From the NCBI GenBank assembly GCA_903916255.1, contig CAIWVW010000070.1, positions 1 to 59,717 of the forward strand: DNA of 59,717 bases. Reading direction: 5' to 3'. How positions within the stretch are numbered: the stretch's first letter is position 1; every line of letters starts with the position of its first letter. A program made the translations under genes and the position numbers. Below are positions 40,810-49,836 of this stretch, one piece after another. Under the pieces are notes generated by a model. The model ran no database searches. It was given only the letters and a program-made list of their open reading frames with translations, and was not told the origin of the DNA. Source of the DNA: an uncultured Bacteroidota bacterium. GTDB taxonomy: Bacteria; Bacteroidota; Bacteroidia; JABEUT01.

Positions 40810-41862
40810 TTATTTCCGACCTATTGTAAATGCTGCGCGAATCACGGTTGGCTTATCATCGCGGGCGGCGGTATAATCGGTTAGGTCGTAATCACGGCCC
40901 ATGCTGGTAATGTCAATAGTTTTAGGATGAACCTTAACAACGGTGTACCCATAATACGGGCCGGTCCAGTCTTTAGGCCCGGGGGCTCCTGCATTGCCGC
41001 AAACCACTTCATAGGTTTTGCCGCGGTGCGGGCATATCGTATCCCAGAAATGGTAGTGCGAACAGAAATAAACATCGGCATTATATTTCTCCATAGCGGC
41101 CCAGGCACTGTCTCTGTTTGCCTGTACTTCATTTAAGCCTGCTTCACCTGACATGGAGGTTGGCCATGCCGGTTTATGGGCAAAAAGAAAGATATGCCTT
41201 GCCCCATCATCATGGGCAGTTTTCAAATCTTTTTCGAGCCAGTGATAGGGGATGCGGCTTTCGCGGGCAAGGCCATCGGTGTTTATTATTATAAAATGGT
41301 CGCCGCCATAATTAAATGAGTAGGTAAGCTGGTTTTGGTTCGACATAAGGCTGTCGGTGCCCGGGCGGAACCCGGTGTAGTGAGGGCCATTATCGCCTGC
41401 AATATAATCTTTCATTTCCCTTACGAAGGTTCTTTCATCAGGGTTAGAAGCTATTTTGCCCGAACCGATTTTTTCATTGGTTTCATGGTTTCCCGGAAAT
41501 GCAATCAGTTTAACGGAAGTAGCTGCAAGCGGCGATTCTTTATAAAGTTTTATCCAAGCGCGTAATTCATTGGCAAGTTTATTGGTATCGCCATCGCAAT
41601 AACCTAAAACCAAGTCGCCATTTATAATGAGCATTCTGGGCAATGGTTTCATTTCCGAAACTTCTTTAAAGAGGCGTTTTACCTGATATTCATTAATGGT
41701 ATTCCATTCCGGATGTGCCGAATCTTCTTTAGGGGCTATGCGGTCATCACCGGTAACAACAAAGGTATAATCATCAATAACGGGGTTGCGGTTACAACCC
41801 GAAAAAGTAAGCAACGCCGTAATGCCTATAACAGGGATTAATAAAAAGGAAGATATTTTCAT
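40810..41862 (-). CDS. Calcineurin-like metallophosphoesterase, lipoprotein
   Basis: 350 residues. Lipoprotein signal MKISSFLLIPVIGITALLTFSGC with lipobox. The metal-binding motifs of the calcineurin-like fold are in order: FVVTGDDRIA (variant of D-x-H), MLIINGDLVLGYCDGD (GD), IAFPGNHETN (GNH[DE]), FLFAHKPAW (second His) and CSHYHFWDT (variant of GHxH). The first motif has Asp-Arg in place of Asp-x-His. These enzymes cleave phosphomonoesters or diesters with two metal ions in the periplasm or at the outer membrane. First gene of the minus-strand phosphate-like block at the low-coordinate end; its upstream region shares a 16-nt stretch with the direct-repeat box at 47960. Confidence 0.85.
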   Translation of the reverse strand: MKISSFLLIPVIGITALLTFSGCNRNPVIDDYTFVVTGDDRIAPKEDSAHPEWNTINEYQVKRLFKEVSEMKPLPRMLIINGDLVLGYCDGDTNKLANELRAWIKLYKESPLAATSVKLIAFPGNHETNEKIGSGKIASNPDERTFVREMKDYIAGDNGPHYTGFRPGTDSLMSNQNQLTYSFNYGGDHFIIINTDGLARESRIPYHWLEKDLKTAHDDGARHIFLFAHKPAWPTSMSGEAGLNEVQANRDSAWAAMEKYNADVYFCSHYHFWDTICPHRGKTYEVVCGNAGAPGPKDWTGPYYGYTVVKVHPKTIDITSMGRDYDLTDYTAARDDKPTVIRAAFTIGRK

Positions 41863-41885: not shown

Positions 41886-41901
41886 ACTAAGAATATGTTA
41901 A
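41886..41901 (-). promoter_or_regulatory. Degenerate PHO-box-like site before metallophosphoesterase gene
   Basis: Minus-strand TTAAC-ATATTC-TTAGT. The stretch GGTTAACATATTCTTA is identical to that at 47958-47973, but the second half-site is degenerate (TTAGT). The ATG at 41862 follows after 23 bp. Confidence 0.4.
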
Positions 41902-41913
41902 CCGAAAAAGAAG

Positions 41914-41950
41914 TAAAAAAACCACCCTCCATAGTCAGCAGGGTGGTTTC
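41914..41950 (-). terminator. Rho-independent terminator between metallophosphoesterase and beta-helix lipoprotein genes
   Basis: On the minus strand: AAACCACCCT, 11-nt loop, AGGGTGGTTT then a seven-T run. It terminates transcription of the upstream minus-strand gene (41970-43430) before the metallophosphoesterase gene. Confidence 0.82.
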
Positions 41951-41969
41951 TCTAATAAATTAATAATAA

Positions 41970-43430
41970 TTATTGCTGGTTGCCAACTGCAGGATTTGAA
42001 TAGGGATAACAGCCGATATCATTGCAAGGAGCGGATTCATCGGGCCTGAATCCAAGTTTTGGAATGTAAACCGATGCACATGCATTAATCGGGTAACCGG
42101 AAGGGAAGCTGGTAGTGCCTGTTCCAACACATGGTGAACCGGAATTGAGCCTGAAGTTGAAACTGTTTGGCGCTTCGTAATTATTCACGTTTAGTAAAGG
42201 AACGCTATAGTTTTCAGGTAAAGGGAAGCCAACAAACTGAGGGTTATTTTCTCCACATAATGCAGAAGCATCGGAAGCATTATACGTTCCGGAACCTGTG
42301 TTAATATAGGTGTAGCCTGTTTCGGTTGGAATAGGTGCAATGTAAGCATCCAGTTTGGTAATGTTGCCTGGGTTAGGATAGAACTGGCTGGTTACAACAA
42401 CAGAATCTCCGTAGATAAAATTATTGCTGTAATAAAGATGCAATGTGTCGGCAACAGGGCTGTAAACTACCCGGAAACCAACCCTGCAATTTACAATTAG
42501 GTTATTGTATGCTGCTCCTTCGGCGCCTTGTTCATAATCGATATCGGACCCGGTGCCTGCACTTTGATTCCTCCAACCGCAATTTACATAGGTATTGTTA
42601 TACATGCACATATTGCATTGTACGGGGTTTCCGCCTTTGTTAGATGCTTTAGAGCCATTCGTAGCTTCACCAATATATAAGTTATATGCACAATCTCCCA
42701 CTCCGCCGCTCTTTACATTGTTGCAATCGCCGCCCTGGTATCCCATCTTTTCAAATACGTTCCGCATAATATCGAAATGGCCGGTTTGAACACGCACAGC
42801 ATCATCGATACCTCCATACATTTTGCAATCCTCCATGATAAAATTCCCGTTGGTATTTTGGAAAAGTATTCCATAAGAAGTGCCGTTATCTTTGGTGCCG
42901 TTAACAGGTTCCGTTCTGTGGAAAGGAGCGCCGGTAAACCAAATTTGTGTCCATTTTAAAACGAGCAATGTACATGAAGTGTCGCACTGAATGCCCGACC
43001 ACCAGCCATTGCCGCCGTTCCAGGCAGGGTCTGATAATTCAGGTTCGGTAAGGCTGTTGTTTGCTGTTACTGCACAATCGGTCATAATTACAGGATTGGA
43101 TTGTGTGCCGAGCGATATAAAAACTCCTTTTACAACAATACAACTTGTATCGGTTACGCAAATAGTTACGCCAGGCTGAACTACAATGGTATCGCCTTTC
43201 TCTACTTCAATGTCGCCAACTACTGTATACGTATTGCCGGTAAGCAATGTGCCGCTGTAAGCTGTTGGGCTGGCACTCCCTTTTACCCCCAGGGTGAGGC
43301 TGGTGATACCATTTACAGGAGGTACATATGCCTGCGAAATGTTATGGTTTTCAATTGTCTTTTTACAGGAAGACAACGAAAGTCCTGCGACTATTGCTAT
43401 TATTCCGGTAAGTAAAAAAAGCTTTTTCAT
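41970..43430 (-). CDS. Right-handed beta-helix lipoprotein, unknown function
   Basis: 486 residues. Lipoprotein signal MKKLFLLTGIIAIVAGLSLSSC with lipobox LSSC. After a linker (to about residue 60) the chain shows stacked short-strand repeats typical of a parallel right-handed beta helix: VGDIEVEKGDTIVVQPGVTI, CIVVKGVFISLGTQSNPVIM, ILFQNTNGNFIMEDCKMYGG, DAVRVQTGHFDIMRNVFEKM, AYNNLIVNCRVGFRVVY. Such proteins bind or cleave polymers, but no lyase residue can be named. It lies 68 bp downstream of the TonB-dependent receptor gene, is followed by a terminator, and is a candidate surface partner of that receptor. Confidence 0.75.
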   Translation of the reverse strand: MKKLFLLTGIIAIVAGLSLSSCKKTIENHNISQAYVPPVNGITSLTLGVKGSASPTAYSGTLLTGNTYTVVGDIEVEKGDTIVVQPGVTICVTDTSCIVVKGVFISLGTQSNPVIMTDCAVTANNSLTEPELSDPAWNGGNGWWSGIQCDTSCTLLVLKWTQIWFTGAPFHRTEPVNGTKDNGTSYGILFQNTNGNFIMEDCKMYGGIDDAVRVQTGHFDIMRNVFEKMGYQGGDCNNVKSGGVGDCAYNLYIGEATNGSKASNKGGNPVQCNMCMYNNTYVNCGWRNQSAGTGSDIDYEQGAEGAAYNNLIVNCRVGFRVVYSPVADTLHLYYSNNFIYGDSVVVTSQFYPNPGNITKLDAYIAPIPTETGYTYINTGSGTYNASDASALCGENNPQFVGFPLPENYSVPLLNVNNYEAPNSFNFRLNSGSPCVGTGTTSFPSGYPINACASVYIPKLGFRPDESAPCNDIGCYPYSNPAVGNQQ

Positions 43431-43498
43431 GTGTTGGATATTTATGGGATTGTTTTGGTTGCGATTATTTAAAAACAGATTGGTTAGTGTTGGTATGG

Positions 43499-46300
43499 TT
43501 ATAATTTATAGCGAATACCGAGCGTATAAAACTGCCCGTAGGTTTGTTTCTCAACGAGGATATTGGTTAACAATGTTCCCGAAACTTGATTGGGCAAGAA
43601 TCCGGTTTGACCTACATTGTAATAAGGGCTTGTAGGATATTGCCTTAATTCGAGCGGAGTATTCAGAATGTTGTTAACTTTTCCAAACAAGCTAATCTTT
43701 AATTTTTTAGATAATCTTTTCTGGAATGAAAGGTCTAACCTTACCTGTGGCATTTGCCATAAATCAAGGCCATAATCAGGAGAAGCAATTGCAATTAATT
43801 TACCGGTATATACGCCGGAAACATTTACATCAAGCCCCATTTTTGGGTTTTTGTAAAGCAGTGATAAGTTAGCGATATTATCTGCCTGTCCTTGCAGCGG
43901 GCGTGTTTCATCTACAAATTTGTTGGTTTGCGTAGTACCGTTTACATAATAGTAATCGTCCAGAACAGTGGTTTGTGATTTGGTGTAGGAATAATTTCCG
44001 GATACTCCGAAAACCTTGCAGAAATAATGGGTGAATACAACTTCAGCTCCATAAGCAAAAGCCTTATTGGTATCATTTATCGGCTGGAGATATTGTGTGG
44101 ATGTTTTATACCTTGTCAATGTATATTCAATCGGGTCGATTAAGTTTTTATAAAACACACCGGCTAAAAGCTGGTCGGTTGAATTAGGGAACCATTCGTA
44201 GCGCAAGTCATAGTTTTGCGCCTGCACATGCAATAAATAAGGATTGCCGATTGCAGTAAACTCATCGCCGGGAATTTGATAAGGCATCAGCTCCTCAAAG
44301 CTGGGGCGGGTAATAGAGGAGAAGTAGCTGAGACGGATGGCTTGCTTATTGGTGATTTTGAATTTAATTTCTCCGCTTGGAAGATAATCGATATAATGTA
44401 TGGTTCCATATTGCGCGTCTACATCCACAGGCAGCGGTGTTCCATATGCTAGTAAAGTATTTTCGCCTCTCAATCCGCCCATTACTTCAATTTTCTTTCC
44501 AATATTGAAATTCACCATTCCATAAACGGCTGTAATATCTTCCTGCACGGAATAATTGTTTCCGCTTTGCTGGCTGCCTGTTTCTGTGCCTGTTCCGTTA
44601 AGGGTCCATATATTATCGGTAAACGGAGTGGTAGCAACCTGTATGGTTGTAGTAAGCGGATTTAAAGAATAATCCTCATACTCATCTACCCTGTTTTTGT
44701 CGCGGTTCATGGCACCAACTTTAAACTTCACGTCCTGACCGGCAATGGTTGTTTTATAAGTGAGGTTAACATATCCAGTGTAATCTTCATCGGTGTTTTG
44801 CCACCATCTTCCACTCCATCCTGAATAATAATAAACGGAGCTGTTAGGAACAATAGTTGTTGTAGATAATGTACCCCAGTCAGGTGTATTTGAAAACCCT
44901 CTTGAATAAGCACCGGTCCAATCTAAAAGCAGGTTGTGCGCCAAGCTGTCCTGGCCTTGCAGGGTAGCATTATAAATATTCTGATAAGATACTTTTGTTT
45001 CATAATTCTTATTCACATCAAGTGCTCCTGTTCCTGTTCCTAATGTAGTATCTGTTTTAAAGTCAGACCTTAATTGGGTCATTCCAACATAAACGGTATA
45101 GAAACTGATTTTATGCTTCGGGCTGAAATCATAATCCAGCTTTAAGTGGGCAGCGTCTCTGGTTTGTTGCGTTGAGTAAACCCTGTTTTCTACATCATCG
45201 AATATAGGTGTGTTCGGCCCTTCAGAAGTTTGCGGTTGCGGGTCAGGGGTAAGGAAGAATTCATTGGTTTGCGAGTAAGAATTTTGATAAACAGCCGAAA
45301 GAATTACACCCAGTTTGTTATTTAAAAAACGGTCGCCGAAGGTAAATCCGGCTGCTGCATCGGGTACTGCTTTTACGGAATTATAGGTAAAAGGTTGAGT
45401 TGGAAAATCAGAGGGGCTTGCATTGTAAGTGGGCCCGTTAATAGCTTCCGGCGATTTGTTATTAATGGCGCTCGAACCAAAACTGTTATAGTTATTGTTA
45501 AGCAAATCCTGTGCATATCCGGTAGATGCTTCTGCACTTATGGCAAGATAATCCGGTGGGTTTTTCAGCACCAGGTTCATTACTCCGCCAATAGCATCGC
45601 CTTCCATGTCGGGGCGCAGGGTTTTAATAACTTCCAAGCGTTCCAGCATAGCTGACGGAAACAAATCCATCGGTACAAATTTATTTTCATAGTCGGGGCT
45701 TGGAAGTTTCACTCCGTTTATGGTCGTGTAATTATAGCGTTTATCCATACCGCGAATAGTAGCATATTTACCTCCGCCTGTAACCGACTTTTGTGTTACA
45801 ACGCCGGATACCCTTTGCAATACATCGCCCACAGTAATATCAGGCAGCAAAAGCATTGTTTTTGCTGAGATAATATTCATAATGTAATCGTTGTTTTTTT
45901 CAAGATTGCGTGCATACACATCCGATTCCCTGTCGTAAGAACCTACAATTTGAACCTGCTTCAACATTAAGGAGTCGGGTTGTAAAGCAAAGTCCTGAAC
46001 AATTACATCCGCAGCACTGGCAACAGTAATACTTCTTTCCTGGGTTATATAACTGAAATATTGAATCACGAGCGTGTACTTTCCCGGCTGAACATCTTTT
46101 AATGTATACGAACCATCTAACCCGGCAGCATCGTTAATTTTATTATCTTCTTTTAAATATACAGTTGCTCCGGTGAGTGCTTCGTTGCTTCTGCCGTCTT
46201 TAATACGGCCCTTTACAGTGGCTGCAAAGGCAGTTGAAAATGAAAGTATAGAGAGGGCTGCAAATAATACTTTCAAGGGTGATAAGGAGGTTTTTTTCAT
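43499..46300 (-). CDS. TonB-dependent receptor with carboxypeptidase-regulatory-like domain
   Basis: 933 residues. Signal peptide ending AFAATVKG; regulatory-like beta-sandwich (about 28-110: GRIKDGRSNEALTGATVYLK, GSYTLKDVQPGKYTLVI); plug (about 130-255: LPDITVGDVLQRVSGVVTQK, ATIRGMDKRYNYTTINGVKL, EGDAIGGVMNLVL); then the barrel with terminal YTLGIRYKL. Probably imports a phosphorylated or other large ligand. Upstream, 50 to 160 bp before the ATG, are two TTAAC-N6-TTAAC boxes and a TAGTTTTG promoter element, suggesting starvation control. Sequence order: endonuclease-fold gene, receptor, lipoprotein, metallophosphoesterase, all minus. Confidence 0.9.
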   Translation of the reverse strand: MKKTSLSPLKVLFAALSILSFSTAFAATVKGRIKDGRSNEALTGATVYLKEDNKINDAAGLDGSYTLKDVQPGKYTLVIQYFSYITQERSITVASAADVIVQDFALQPDSLMLKQVQIVGSYDRESDVYARNLEKNNDYIMNIISAKTMLLLPDITVGDVLQRVSGVVTQKSVTGGGKYATIRGMDKRYNYTTINGVKLPSPDYENKFVPMDLFPSAMLERLEVIKTLRPDMEGDAIGGVMNLVLKNPPDYLAISAEASTGYAQDLLNNNYNSFGSSAINNKSPEAINGPTYNASPSDFPTQPFTYNSVKAVPDAAAGFTFGDRFLNNKLGVILSAVYQNSYSQTNEFFLTPDPQPQTSEGPNTPIFDDVENRVYSTQQTRDAAHLKLDYDFSPKHKISFYTVYVGMTQLRSDFKTDTTLGTGTGALDVNKNYETKVSYQNIYNATLQGQDSLAHNLLLDWTGAYSRGFSNTPDWGTLSTTTIVPNSSVYYYSGWSGRWWQNTDEDYTGYVNLTYKTTIAGQDVKFKVGAMNRDKNRVDEYEDYSLNPLTTTIQVATTPFTDNIWTLNGTGTETGSQQSGNNYSVQEDITAVYGMVNFNIGKKIEVMGGLRGENTLLAYGTPLPVDVDAQYGTIHYIDYLPSGEIKFKITNKQAIRLSYFSSITRPSFEELMPYQIPGDEFTAIGNPYLLHVQAQNYDLRYEWFPNSTDQLLAGVFYKNLIDPIEYTLTRYKTSTQYLQPINDTNKAFAYGAEVVFTHYFCKVFGVSGNYSYTKSQTTVLDDYYYVNGTTQTNKFVDETRPLQGQADNIANLSLLYKNPKMGLDVNVSGVYTGKLIAIASPDYGLDLWQMPQVRLDLSFQKRLSKKLKISLFGKVNNILNTPLELRQYPTSPYYNVGQTGFLPNQVSGTLLTNILVEKQTYGQFYTLGIRYKL

Positions 46301-46323
46301 AGTGGTTTTTGATTTTTACGGCG

Positions 46324-46331
46324 CAAAACTA
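46324..46331 (-). promoter_or_regulatory. -7 element TAGTTTTG of TonB-dependent receptor gene
   Basis: Minus-strand TAnnTTTG match, 23 bp upstream of the ATG at 46300. Confidence 0.45.
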
Positions 46332-46389
46332 TTTTTATATAACATGTGTTTTCTCTGTCGAAATAGAATATAGTAATTAAATAATAGTC

Positions 46390-46405
46390 TTAACGTTTGA
46401 TTAAC
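46390..46405. promoter_or_regulatory. PHO-box-like direct repeat TTAAC-N6-TTAAC
   Basis: TTAAC at 46390-46394 and 46401-46405, 11-bp period (spacer GTTTGA). It lies 58 bp upstream of the receptor gene's -7 element. Confidence 0.6.
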
Positions 46406-46443
46406 ATTGAGCGAGAAAATGGTGCCTATTTAGATAACTTGGG

Positions 46444-46459
46444 TTAACTTTCAGTTAAC
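46444..46459. promoter_or_regulatory. PHO-box-like direct repeat TTAAC-N6-TTAAC
   Basis: TTAAC at 46444-46448 and 46455-46459 (spacer TTTCAG), again 11-bp period, 54 bp (about five helical turns) from the first box. The half-sites here are GTTAAC palindromes. Confidence 0.6.
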
Positions 46460-46498
46460 ATTATTTTAGCGGTGTTTCTCCGAAAATCCGGGTTGATT

Positions 46499-47875
46499 TT
46501 ACTCTTTCACTACTTTTATGGTAGTGCTGTATCCACCGGATGTGAAATGAACAAAGTAGACACCGGGAACAAGCGCAATGTTTTTGGTTATTGCGGAACT
46601 TGTAATGTTGATGACTGATTGATATAGGTTTCTTCCACAAACGTCATATATGGTCATAGTTGCATTCTGTCCGTTTAAATAAGAAGCAAAATGCATTACC
46701 AACCCATTTTCTACCGGGTTATTTATTTTAATGCTGCCCGGGTCCGATTGGATATTTCTAACAGAAAGTATAGGATTAACAGCCAGCGTAACCTCTACCG
46801 GATATTTATCGGAAAAATTAAACAGTGCATTTAAAACAGCAGCAGGCGCAGATGTATTCGTGCCTGCATTCACATCTATTCCGGCGCGCTTGCCGTCATT
46901 GCCAATGGTAGTATATGAATTGCGCACGTAGGTAAGGTTTTTTTCTCCGTTCACAATCCATGGCGATAATAGTATATGGTCATACCAGTCCTTTGCACCA
47001 CCTGTTGTTCCGCAGGAATTTGGAAGGGTTGTAGAGCGCGTGGTAGTTGTAAAATAAGCCTGATAGGTATTGCCGCTATTCCAGTTGCAAGGGTAGGTTA
47101 AATGTGCATCTGGATAAAATGGAGGGTCATTCAATACATAATTTGTATCTGAAATTTGAGTAAGATATTCATATCCCGCTTCGGTAGAAGTGCGGGTGTT
47201 GAAATCGCCCATGTATATAAGATTGGGTGTGTGGCTAAACATCTTTCTTACATTCAGCATAACGCAGGAATCTTCTCCGTCACGTCCTGTATCTGTTGTT
47301 CCGCTTGAAATAGTATGGCAAAGAATTACATATAAATAAGTGGTATCGGTAGAAGGTGTCATGTAAGGTGAATTATAGTAAAACTTAAACATGTCGAAAT
47401 CTTCCTGCCCGTAATACATAGGAGTGGTGGAAACATAGGTCAGTTTATTATGGTCGAAAAAAACCAGTTCGGAACTTCCTCCAATGCATCTCGATAAGTC
47501 AGTAAAAGGGCAGGAACCATATCTTCCGGGATAAACGGCATCCATGCATTCGGCAATTACGGTGTCAGGAAAATAGTAGGAAGATATTCCGTTTACATCA
47601 GATACACTGGTTTGTACGCATTGCATTTTATCCAATCCTATAATATCGGCATTGGCAAATTGAATAATTGATTTCAAATCGGCATACAGCGGCATAATTG
47701 AAGCCTGGTTAGGAGCCTGGCAATTATTATTATTCGGACTTCCAAATCCCAGAACATTATATACCATTACGCGGAGTGTGTCGTTTTGTTGAGCGTAACT
47801 TGAAGTGGCAGGAGAGAAATTTGCCGCCAAAAACAGAATAGCAGAAAATAAAATGGGTTGAAATTTTCGGTTCAT
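46499..47875 (-). CDS. Endonuclease/exonuclease/phosphatase-fold secreted protein, T9SS-sorted
   Basis: 458 residues. Signal peptide ending SSYAQQ; an EEP-fold domain (about 35-365) with RVMVYNVLGFG (Asn), IIGLDKMQ, SSELVFFDHNKLT, NLIYMGDFNTR near residue 222 (GDFN) and KDWYDHILLSPWI (DH). In most family members the second motif holds the catalytic Glu (Q-E or N-E); here the sequence is LDKMQ, so activity is uncertain. The last 85 residues are a type A sorting domain (IKINNPVENGLVMHF, VPGVYFVHF, IKVVKE). Probably a secreted nuclease or phosphatase. A TATGTTTG promoter element and a three-half-site PHO-like box lie upstream. Confidence 0.82.
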   Translation of the reverse strand: MNRKFQPILFSAILFLAANFSPATSSYAQQNDTLRVMVYNVLGFGSPNNNNCQAPNQASIMPLYADLKSIIQFANADIIGLDKMQCVQTSVSDVNGISSYYFPDTVIAECMDAVYPGRYGSCPFTDLSRCIGGSSELVFFDHNKLTYVSTTPMYYGQEDFDMFKFYYNSPYMTPSTDTTYLYVILCHTISSGTTDTGRDGEDSCVMLNVRKMFSHTPNLIYMGDFNTRTSTEAGYEYLTQISDTNYVLNDPPFYPDAHLTYPCNWNSGNTYQAYFTTTTRSTTLPNSCGTTGGAKDWYDHILLSPWIVNGEKNLTYVRNSYTTIGNDGKRAGIDVNAGTNTSAPAAVLNALFNFSDKYPVEVTLAVNPILSVRNIQSDPGSIKINNPVENGLVMHFASYLNGQNATMTIYDVCGRNLYQSVINITSSAITKNIALVPGVYFVHFTSGGYSTTIKVVKE

Positions 47876-47924
47876 AGTTGGGGTAAGTATATTTTATTTG
47901 TAGAGTTTTTTTTGTATTCGCCTG

Positions 47925-47932
47925 CAAACATA
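47925..47932 (-). promoter_or_regulatory. -7 element TATGTTTG of EEP-fold gene
   Basis: Minus-strand TAnnTTTG match, 49 bp upstream of the ATG at 47875. The PHO-like box begins 27 bp further upstream, about where an activator replacing a -33 contact would sit. Confidence 0.5.
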
Positions 47933-47959
47933 TAGCTCTTGCCACTTTTATTTATTGGG

Positions 47960-47986
47960 TTAACATATTCTTAACAAAAGGATAAC
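47960..47986. promoter_or_regulatory. Three-half-site PHO-box-like repeat
   Basis: TTAAC at 47960-47964 and 47971-47975, and ATAAC at 47982-47986: three half-sites at 11-bp steps, the third with one mismatch. Confidence 0.65.
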
Positions 47987-48083
47987 CATTACTTTCTGTT
48001 TAGAATGAAAATTGGGAATTATGTTACCCAGGTATTGCCCTATTGTTAGGTGTTTGAAGGCTGTTCTGACAAAATTGCAGGGT

Positions 48084-48099
48084 TTAACTTTCCGTTAAC
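48084..48099. promoter_or_regulatory. PHO-box-like direct repeat TTAAC-N6-TTAAC
   Basis: TTAAC at 48084-48088 and 48095-48099 (spacer TTTCCG), 11-bp period, ending 21 bp before the TACATTTG promoter element at 48121. Confidence 0.6.
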
Positions 48100-48120
48100 G
48101 AATACTTCATATTACAGAAA

Positions 48121-48128
48121 TACATTTG
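48121..48128 (+). promoter_or_regulatory. -7 element TACATTTG, probable start for glycine-rich gene
   Basis: Exact TAnnTTTG match with a PHO-like box in the -33 region. The downstream gene starts 184 bp later, so the leader would be long. Confidence 0.45.
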
Positions 48129-48312: not shown

Positions 48313-49836
48313 ATGAATAATTCGCTGAGACAAATAGTTCTATTTTTTGCAATTTGTATTTCACCTTTTCTGCTGCATGCGCAGAATGTTGGTATCAATA
48401 CCACCGGCGCCAGCGCCGATGCATCCGCTATCCTCGACCTTAACACCGGCAATGCGGGTAATGTGGGTTTTCTTGCGCCCCAGGCTGCTTTGCAAAATGT
48501 TACTGATATTACTACTATCCCCTCTCCGGCAACAGGCCTTATGGTATATAACACCAATGCTGCCATGACAGGCGGAAACGGGGTAGGGTATTATTATTAT
48601 TCCGGAAGCCAGTGGACGTATTTCCAAAGTAGCGCGAGTTCCGGAACTGTAACTTCAGTTGGGCTAACAGGCCCCGGCGGAATTTTTGGAATTACAAATA
48701 CCAATGGCAATCCAATAACGGGTAATGGTTCATTCGGAATAACTACTGCGGGAACTTCCGGCGGCATTCCTTATTTCAACTCAAACTCAACCTTGGCAAC
48801 TTCTGCACTTTTAACTCACTATGGCATTATATATGGTGGTGGTGCAGGTGGTGCACCTGTATCTGCGGCTGCACTTACAAATGGGCAGGTTTTAATAGGT
48901 TCTACAGGAGCAGCGCCTATTCCGGCAACCATAACCGCAGGAAGCGGAATTTCCGTTACAAATGCCGCAGGAAGCATAACAATAGCTGCTACCGGAACTC
49001 CGGTAACTAATGTTACAGCCACAGCACCTGTATATTCAAGCGGAGGAACAACTCCCAATATTACATTAGGAGGAACAACCAATGGAGTAGTATATGCAAC
49101 CGGTGCAAATACGGCTGCGGTAACTCCGGCAAGTACCGCGGCCAATCAGGTTTTAATGACCAGCGCGGCAGGCGGGGCGCCCACGTTTCAGGCAATGGGC
49201 GCACTTAATAATATTAAAGTTATAACTGCTTCGGGAAATTATACACCAACCGCCGGAACAAGTGTTATTCAGGTTGAACTTATCGGTGGCGGCGGCGGCG
49301 GGGGGTCAAGTTCAGTAGCCACAAGTAATGGTTCTGCCGGCGGCGGTGGCGGTGCAGGAGGATATGTGAAGTTTTTTATTAATAATCCTGTAGGGCCATA
49401 TGCTGTTGTGATAGGGGCAGGCGGTGCCGGTGCAGGTGCTGGAGGTAATGGCAGCGCAGGAACTGCCACAACTTTTCCGGGCGGATATTCTGCCGGCGGC
49501 GGCGCAGGCGGTTTGAAAGGCACTTCACCCTGTGCGGGTGCTGGAGGTGCCGGAGGCACTGCTTCGGGTGGGCTTATAAATATTCCCGGAGCTCCGGGAT
49601 ATACAGGTGTAGGCGGTGGCAGCGGCGGTTCAGTTTCAGGTGCTGGTGGTTCTTCCTTTTTAGGCGGCGGAGCTGCTCCGGTTACAATAACTGCGGCAGG
49701 GTCCACTGCTGGTATCAATGCAAATGCTAATACAGGCGGCGGTGGCAGCGGATGTGCAACACTTCCCACTATTGCCTCTGCTGCGGCAGGCGGAAACGGC
49801 GGCAGCGGAATAATTATTATTACCGAATATAAGTAG
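48313..49836 (+). CDS. Secreted glycine-rich surface protein
   Basis: 507 residues. Signal peptide MNNSLRQIVLFFAICISPFLLHAQ followed by the NVGINTTGASADASAILDLN segment that opens many Bacteroidota surface and fibre-like proteins. Residues about 100-330 are low-complexity, Thr/Ala/Gly-rich beta sequence. From about residue 333 (VELIGGGGGGGS) to the end the chain is very glycine-rich: VIGAGGAGAGAGGNG, GYSAGGGAGGLKG, GGSGGSVSGAGGSSFLGGG. It closes GGSGIIIITEYK. No T9SS type A tail is visible. Short hydrophobic/Gly patterns are reminiscent of the glycine-rich adhesin domains of phage tail fibres (polyglycine-II sheets), so a surface-binding role is plausible but unproven. Confidence 0.75.
   Translation: MNNSLRQIVLFFAICISPFLLHAQNVGINTTGASADASAILDLNTGNAGNVGFLAPQAALQNVTDITTIPSPATGLMVYNTNAAMTGGNGVGYYYYSGSQWTYFQSSASSGTVTSVGLTGPGGIFGITNTNGNPITGNGSFGITTAGTSGGIPYFNSNSTLATSALLTHYGIIYGGGAGGAPVSAAALTNGQVLIGSTGAAPIPATITAGSGISVTNAAGSITIAATGTPVTNVTATAPVYSSGGTTPNITLGGTTNGVVYATGANTAAVTPASTAANQVLMTSAAGGAPTFQAMGALNNIKVITASGNYTPTAGTSVIQVELIGGGGGGGSSSVATSNGSAGGGGGAGGYVKFFINNPVGPYAVVIGAGGAGAGAGGNGSAGTATTFPGGYSAGGGAGGLKGTSPCAGAGGAGGTASGGLINIPGAPGYTGVGGGSGGSVSGAGGSSFLGGGAAPVTITAAGSTAGINANANTGGGGSGCATLPTIASAAAGGNGGSGIIIITEYK

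Follow-up and report, generated by a model that had tools for sequence, protein, structure and literature searches.

This locus raises the question of whether the short TTAAC repeats scattered among its genes are operators of a single regulator and, if so, of which one. The window, as we call the whole 59,717-nt stretch of DNA analysed here, comes from an uncultured member of the Bacteroidota, and a sequence-only reading of it had proposed that a Pho-type regulator controls the block of genes beside the repeats. That proposal is supported by the occurrence of the same boxes at phosphate genes, by their conservation, by their phasing with promoters and by a search blind to gene identity. On these comparisons we consider it highly probable that the boxes are PHO boxes for the genome's own PhoB, which would activate the window cluster under phosphate starvation.

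Boxes and genes of the window

Exact copies of TTAAC-N6-TTAAC lie at 46390-46405, 46444-46459, 47960-47975 and 48084-48099, in agreement with the sequence-only reading. The second also reads on the minus strand as 46443-46458, giving five matches at four places in the window; the expectation was 0.34, and a count of five never arose in 100 dinucleotide shuffles. Two weaker elements of that reading are likewise present: ATAAC at 47982-47986, a third half-site that keeps the 11-bp phase of the 47960 box, and a degenerate copy at 41886-41901 (minus strand), TTAACATATTCTTAGT, which has the 16-mer GGTTAACATATTCTTA (41889-41904, minus strand) in common with the 47960 box. Box orientation is ambiguous because the TTAA core is nearly palindromic; the triple array, for instance, reads TTATC/TTAAG/TTAAC on the minus strand and TTAAC/TTAAC/ATAAC on the plus strand. 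The features are collected in Table 1.

Table 1. Genes, putative boxes and promoter elements of the window
Feature	Positions	Strand	Remarks
Metallophosphoesterase, lipoprotein-like signal	40810..41862	-	PF00149, 4.3e-10
Degenerate box before metallophosphoesterase	41886..41901	-	TTAACATATTCTTAGT; shared 16-mer; weakest of the set
Hairpin followed by T-run	41920..41948	-	Arms AACCACCCT/AGGGTGGTT, by inspection
Beta-helix lipoprotein	41970..43430	-	Lipoprotein-like Cys after signal
TonB-dependent receptor	43499..46300	-	PF07715, PF00593, PF13715
-7 element TAGTTTTG, receptor promoter	46325..46332	-	Conserved core ATAAAAATAnTTTTG
Putative Pho box 1, receptor promoter	46387..46410	-	TTAAC pair 46390/46401; top window score; kept in genus relatives
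Putative Pho box 2, receptor promoter	46441..46464	-	Exact repeat, readable on both strands; second-best window score
Secreted EEP-family-like protein with T9SS tail	46499..47875	-	Homologues match PF03372
-7 element TATGTTTG, EEP-like gene	47925..47932	-	Box plus -7 match 47925-47974
Triple half-site array, EEP-like gene promoter	47960..47986	-	11-bp phase; third-best motif score
Putative Pho box before glycine-rich gene	48084..48099	+	Exact repeat; 22-bp gap to -7 element
-7 element TACATTTG, serving 48313-49836	48121..48128	+	About 185 bp before start codon
Glycine-rich secreted protein	48313..49836	+	PF21722 (Gly_rich_2)

Concerning the proteins, the earlier gene calls were upheld for the metallophosphoesterase, the beta-helix lipoprotein, the TonB receptor and the glycine-rich protein. 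The metallophosphoesterase has weak similarity to purple acid phosphatases. The lipoprotein, whose structural model is confident only over about residues 60-280, has pectate-lyase and alginate-lyase folds among its best matches, none at E<=0.001; its gene has no box of its own in this genome and adjoins the receptor gene, as in the Flavobacterium-type low-phosphate TBDT/lipoprotein locus. For the glycine-rich gene, no counterpart in synteny was seen among the relatives read.

The call of an EEP-fold nuclease needs to be modified. No direct Pfam match for an EEP domain was obtained for this protein, and its likeness to the family comes through distant homologues, about 30% identical, which match PF03372. 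Two expected catalytic residues are replaced by Lys: the metal-binding Glu (GLDKMQ) and the catalytic His of SDHxPV (SDKYPV). Homologues in L172, L173, L171 and L197 were compared: the expected residues are absent from the window protein and from its genus homologues, in which both Lys are invariant, whereas Glu and His are retained in the distant ones. The predicted structure was unusable (pLDDT 35), and a sequence-based comparison of the EEP and lipoprotein profiles with solved structures gave no convincing match. This secreted protein may thus be an altered member of the family, or one without enzymatic activity.

A scan for sigma-70 promoters and terminators found nothing above shuffled sequences. 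The hairpin of Table 1 has a loop of 11 nt, beyond the limits of the terminator scan, and with its T-run it is probably a terminator between the lipoprotein and metallophosphoesterase transcripts; since it would part the two, the metallophosphoesterase would need its own, weak box.

The phosphate locus and other sites of the same genome

The bare motif was counted over the whole genome (3.74 Mb in 149 contigs), where it is not enriched: 22 sites (17+5) were found against 20 (10+10) for the reversed control. The earlier statement that the repeats are far above chance is correct for the window, to which it referred; the genome count we dropped as evidence. Because the motif is no commoner than its control, it is clustering and context that carry weight.

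After merging palindromic duplicates, 20 places remain, 4 in the window and 16 outside. Five exact places lie on contig C22, and four of these fall in two short promoter gaps, so that a quarter of the places outside the window (4/16) belong to one locus, ordered phoR-phoB / DUF47-PiT / porin-pstS-pstC-pstA-pstB-phoU by Pfam and NCBIfam. The gaps are those between phoB and DUF47 and between PiT and the porin gene, and in both of them two exact boxes stand side by side (TTAACAATTAATTAACAACTTAACATTTGGTTAAC and TTAACAATCAATTAACAAGTTAACAATTTGTTAAC). The response regulator and kinase adjoin DUF47-PiT-porin-pst, so a cognate PhoB-PhoR pair is encoded in the genome; NCBIfam PhoB models are the best matches of the regulator, at 226 bits against a curated cut-off of 270. 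The porin has no Pfam match in this genome, and its relatives adjoin pstS and phoB.

The sequence-only reading had named enrichment at pst, pho and alkaline phosphatase genes as a test of its proposal. The outcome is positive in this genome for pst and pho, since both promoter gaps of C22 carry two exact boxes. For alkaline phosphatase it is divided: an exact box stands about 37 bp before the PafA gene (L028:3491-5137, contig C43), but orthologues outside the genus have none and in Flavobacterium PafA has been called phosphate-insensitive (PMC8812569), so PafA is no more than a possible Pho target. About 12 other exact sites of the genome may be background.

Conservation and specificity of the 11-bp period

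Upstream DNA of orthologues was collected from relatives and searched for TTAAC pairs with at most one mismatch within 300 bp. At period 11, pairs precede 30/40 phoB genes, 21/30 TonB receptor genes, 8/16 porin genes and 5/7 beta-helix lipoprotein genes, against 0/28 for atpD, and at the same stringency the other periods from 8 to 14 gave only 0-6. Each type of cluster gene has promoters with boxes in several relatives' genomes. Box 1 stays at the same place upstream of the receptor in genus relatives, and its distance of 53 bp to box 2 is the same in the G007 orthologue. The EEP-like gene has a paralogue outside the cluster, on contig C6 of the window's own genome, and in the upstream DNA read for it no box (<=1 mismatch) was seen.

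An EM search that was given no seed, only 34 promoters of phoB genes from outside the genus, returned GTTAaCnnaAtaTTAA, which is the same 11-bp element. Run over the window, this motif placed receptor boxes 1 and 2 first and second, at 21.1 and 19.4 bits; the third score, 11.8 bits at the EEP box, could arise by chance, about one match of >=12 bits being expected per window.

The gene cluster itself is also conserved. G004 and G007 have the metallophosphoesterase, lipoprotein, receptor and EEP-like genes side by side as well; G003 has three of the four on a short contig, and G001 has receptor and EEP-like gene at a contig end. In this genome the cluster stands apart from phoBR, but it lies near a phoB-like gene in G006, and in G005 the receptor, lipoprotein and metallophosphoesterase genes adjoin phoB, with pstS nearby. 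In other families, several distant homologues of the receptor (22-29% identity) are encoded directly beside phoB, an arrangement also known from Fjoh_0544-0546 of Flavobacterium johnsoniae. In two genus relatives a pair of adjacent exact boxes (L172:3800-3836 and L175:2545-2581) precedes the gene of a T9SS-secreted protein of 276-278 aa, a further candidate target.

Position of the boxes relative to the -7 element

The -7 element of Bacteroides promoters is TAnnTTTG (PMC4747536). We measured the gap between the final TTAA and a -7-like element in 61 promoters that carry a good box. It is exactly 22 bp in 7 of them and exactly 33 bp in 14, where shuffling gives a mean of 0.2 for each gap, although promoters within one genus are related and so not every case counts as an independent event. 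The longer gap exceeds the shorter by one 11-bp unit.

In the window, the box before the glycine-rich gene is exactly 22 bp from TACATTTG, one of the two spacings preferred across the class. The receptor and EEP-like promoters depart from this rule, with gaps of 58 and 27 bp; five receptor promoters of the genus nevertheless keep 57-58 bp between a box and the core ATAAAAATAnTTTTG, and the EEP array and its spacing are conserved with G007.

Elsewhere in the genome (G000), a box with an exact 22-bp gap to a -7 element is found at C109:15493, C42:10816, C115:12436 and C52:47522 (L215, L204, L216 and L207), before genes for a SixA-like phosphatase, a small secreted protein, a cytochrome b561-like protein and a sugar-phosphate isomerase; these four loci are further candidate Pho targets. 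Contigs C41 and C106 (L203 and L214) carry near-identical promoter stretches of 56 bp, from TTAATAAAAGATTAAT to TACATTTG, before different secreted-protein genes, perhaps a duplicated promoter.

We also searched 198 genomes of the class with a query made of the box, 21 N and TAnnTTTG, which contains no sequence of the window and whose spacing was chosen after the geometry analysis. This gave 29 matches against 4 for the reversed control. At the 27 loci taken from other genomes no box was inside a gene, and 24 had a gene just downstream. Nine of these 24 genes are phoB, DUF47, a Na/Pi cotransporter, three phosphate porins and three PiT, two of the PiT matches coming from near-identical loci. 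A related search, likewise free of window sequence, gave 14 matches in four named Flavobacterium genomes; 6 matches precede DUF47, and every genome has one or more of these; exact boxes lie near pstS/pstC in 3 of the 4.

Lineage difference in the half-site

The TTAAC motif from outside the genus recognises GTAAC-type boxes poorly, and the half-sites were therefore compared. Exact (G/T)TAAC pairs at period 11 occur at 30 of 80 named pstC loci, a set that does not include B. fragilis itself, with 0-2 at other periods; TTAAC-only pairs account for 10 loci and GTAAC-only pairs for 12. In Bacteroidales, phoB and pst promoters (L219-L223, L243-L322) show GTAAC-N6-GTAAC in place of TTAAC-N6-TTAAC. 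Bacteroidaceae-like phoB genes combine GTAAC pairs with the recognition helix DVNITRLRKK, and in TTAAC-type genomes the PhoB helix is DVHIRKLREK, an association that is a correlation over few lineages. We are inclined to think, with some reserve, that Bacteroidota share a Pho box phase-locked to the -7 element whose half-site has switched between TTAAC with DVHIRKLREK (Flavobacteria and the lineage of the window) and GTAAC with DVNITRLRKK (Bacteroidaceae). If so, the lineages would form a natural covariation series for DNA recognition by PhoB, and the apparent switch offers a concrete test of recognition-helix specificity.

A putative PhoB regulon and its alternatives

The model that we propose is as follows. 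When phosphate is scarce, PhoR would phosphorylate PhoB, encoded on contig C22, and PhoB would bind the tandem 11-bp units head-to-tail upstream of the Bacteroidota -7 element and recruit polymerase to the promoter there. It would thereby activate its own gene, DUF47-PiT and the porin-pst operon and, in the window, the receptor with its beta-helix lipoprotein and the EEP-like protein; the glycine-rich protein and the metallophosphoesterase are probably targets too. The activated cluster would scavenge organic phosphorus. Binding by PhoB, activation as the direction of the effect and the nature of the substrate are what we infer from the sequence comparisons. Several points weigh against the model: the bare motif stands at background frequency genome-wide, PhoB scores below its model cut-off, the receptor and EEP-like spacings deviate from 22 and 33 bp, and in this genome the metallophosphoesterase box is degenerate and the lipoprotein gene lacks a box.

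A narrower form of this model, compatible with it, would leave only the receptor and EEP-like promoters under Pho control and take the boxes of the glycine-rich and metallophosphoesterase genes as fortuitous. We regard this as possible, if rather doubtful. It would fit the outside-genus motif, which scores high at no boxes but those of the receptor and moderately at the EEP box, as well as the lack of a syntenic counterpart for the glycine-rich gene in the relatives read and the degenerate state of the metallophosphoesterase's own box. However, the glycine-rich box is exact and 22 bp from a perfect -7 element, and orthologues of the metallophosphoesterase carry boxes in the same promoter, one of them exact.

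It is improbable, in our opinion, that the window boxes belong to a different regulator of the OmpR family whose 11-bp TTAA operator is similar, such as an ArcA-like redox regulator, and resemble those of the pho locus by a shared half-site preference. The PhoP motif of Riemerella has been likened to the E. coli ArcA motif (PMC9603813), the near-palindromic TTAA core is not unique, and at first look this genome offered 41 candidate places for the PhoB-like sequence. Our enrichment was examined on the phosphate side, and a box need not mean phosphate control because Riemerella PhoP has hundreds of non-phosphate peaks. Against another regulator stand the top rank of the receptor boxes for a motif derived from phoB genes of other genera, the location of distant receptor homologues beside phoB, the phosphate genes returned by the gene-blind search and the kind of genes in the cluster, low-phosphate-induced in Flavobacterium. 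Finally, chance occurrence in AT-rich intergenic DNA, which the equality of the genome-wide count with its reversed control would allow, can practically be dismissed given the four boxes of the window, the period specificity, the conservation, the ranking by the outside-genus motif and the promoter phasing.

If the boxes are PHO boxes, box and promoter spacing together would allow the Pho regulon to be predicted from sequence in thousands of uncultured genomes, and it would include many outer-membrane and secreted proteins without known function, as in this window.

Comparison with known systems

Transcriptomes have already revealed responses of Bacteroidota to low phosphate. The kind of box described here is already known, including a TTTAACA motif for Riemerella PhoP, while its present form is little described for Bacteroidota. 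In the accessible literature, to which most subscription papers do not belong, we found no operator tied to Bacteroidota pst, PiT, phoB and outer-membrane genes, nor the class-wide link of the box to phosphate genes, the spacing rule or the lineage difference.

The PHO box of E. coli PhoB consists of two 11-nt direct repeats with a CTGTCAT core (PMC4415409). The 11-bp direct units, the arrays of 2-4 units, the cognate PhoB-PhoR and the pst and phoB targets are similar, but the half-site here is TTAAC and it is placed relative to the Bacteroidota -7 TAnnTTTG instead of a -10. Closest in sequence is the cyanobacterial SphR box, with CTTAACCT units and 3-bp linkers (PMC1906773), which has the TTAAC core, the 11-bp period and three-unit arrays and differs in phylum, promoter type and downstream genes.

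Within the phylum, DAP-seq of Riemerella anatipestifer PhoP gave 583 peaks with TTTAACA as the most conserved bases, the same core as here, and EMSA showed binding at phoPR and at the promoter of a TonB receptor; the accessible part of that report stresses aerotolerance and does not define an 11-bp Pho box, a pst/PiT link or a promoter spacing (PMC9603813). PhoB of Bacteroides fragilis binds the pstC promoter by EMSA (PMC3547664), so that binding of a pst promoter by a Bacteroidota PhoB, predicted here, was shown there; however, the site is unmapped in the accessible part of that paper, and Bacteroidales relatives use GTAAC units. The most similar gene set is Fjoh_0544-0546 of Flavobacterium johnsoniae, beside phoBR, where low phosphate strongly induces the genes of a TBDT and of a lipoprotein of the beta-helix type (PMC8115612). 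That report mentions no Pho box. Both loci combine a TonB transporter with a beta-helix-type lipoprotein, Pi-repressed and together with phoB in F. johnsoniae, whereas the window cluster lies away from phoBR and adds the EEP-like and metallophosphoesterase genes.
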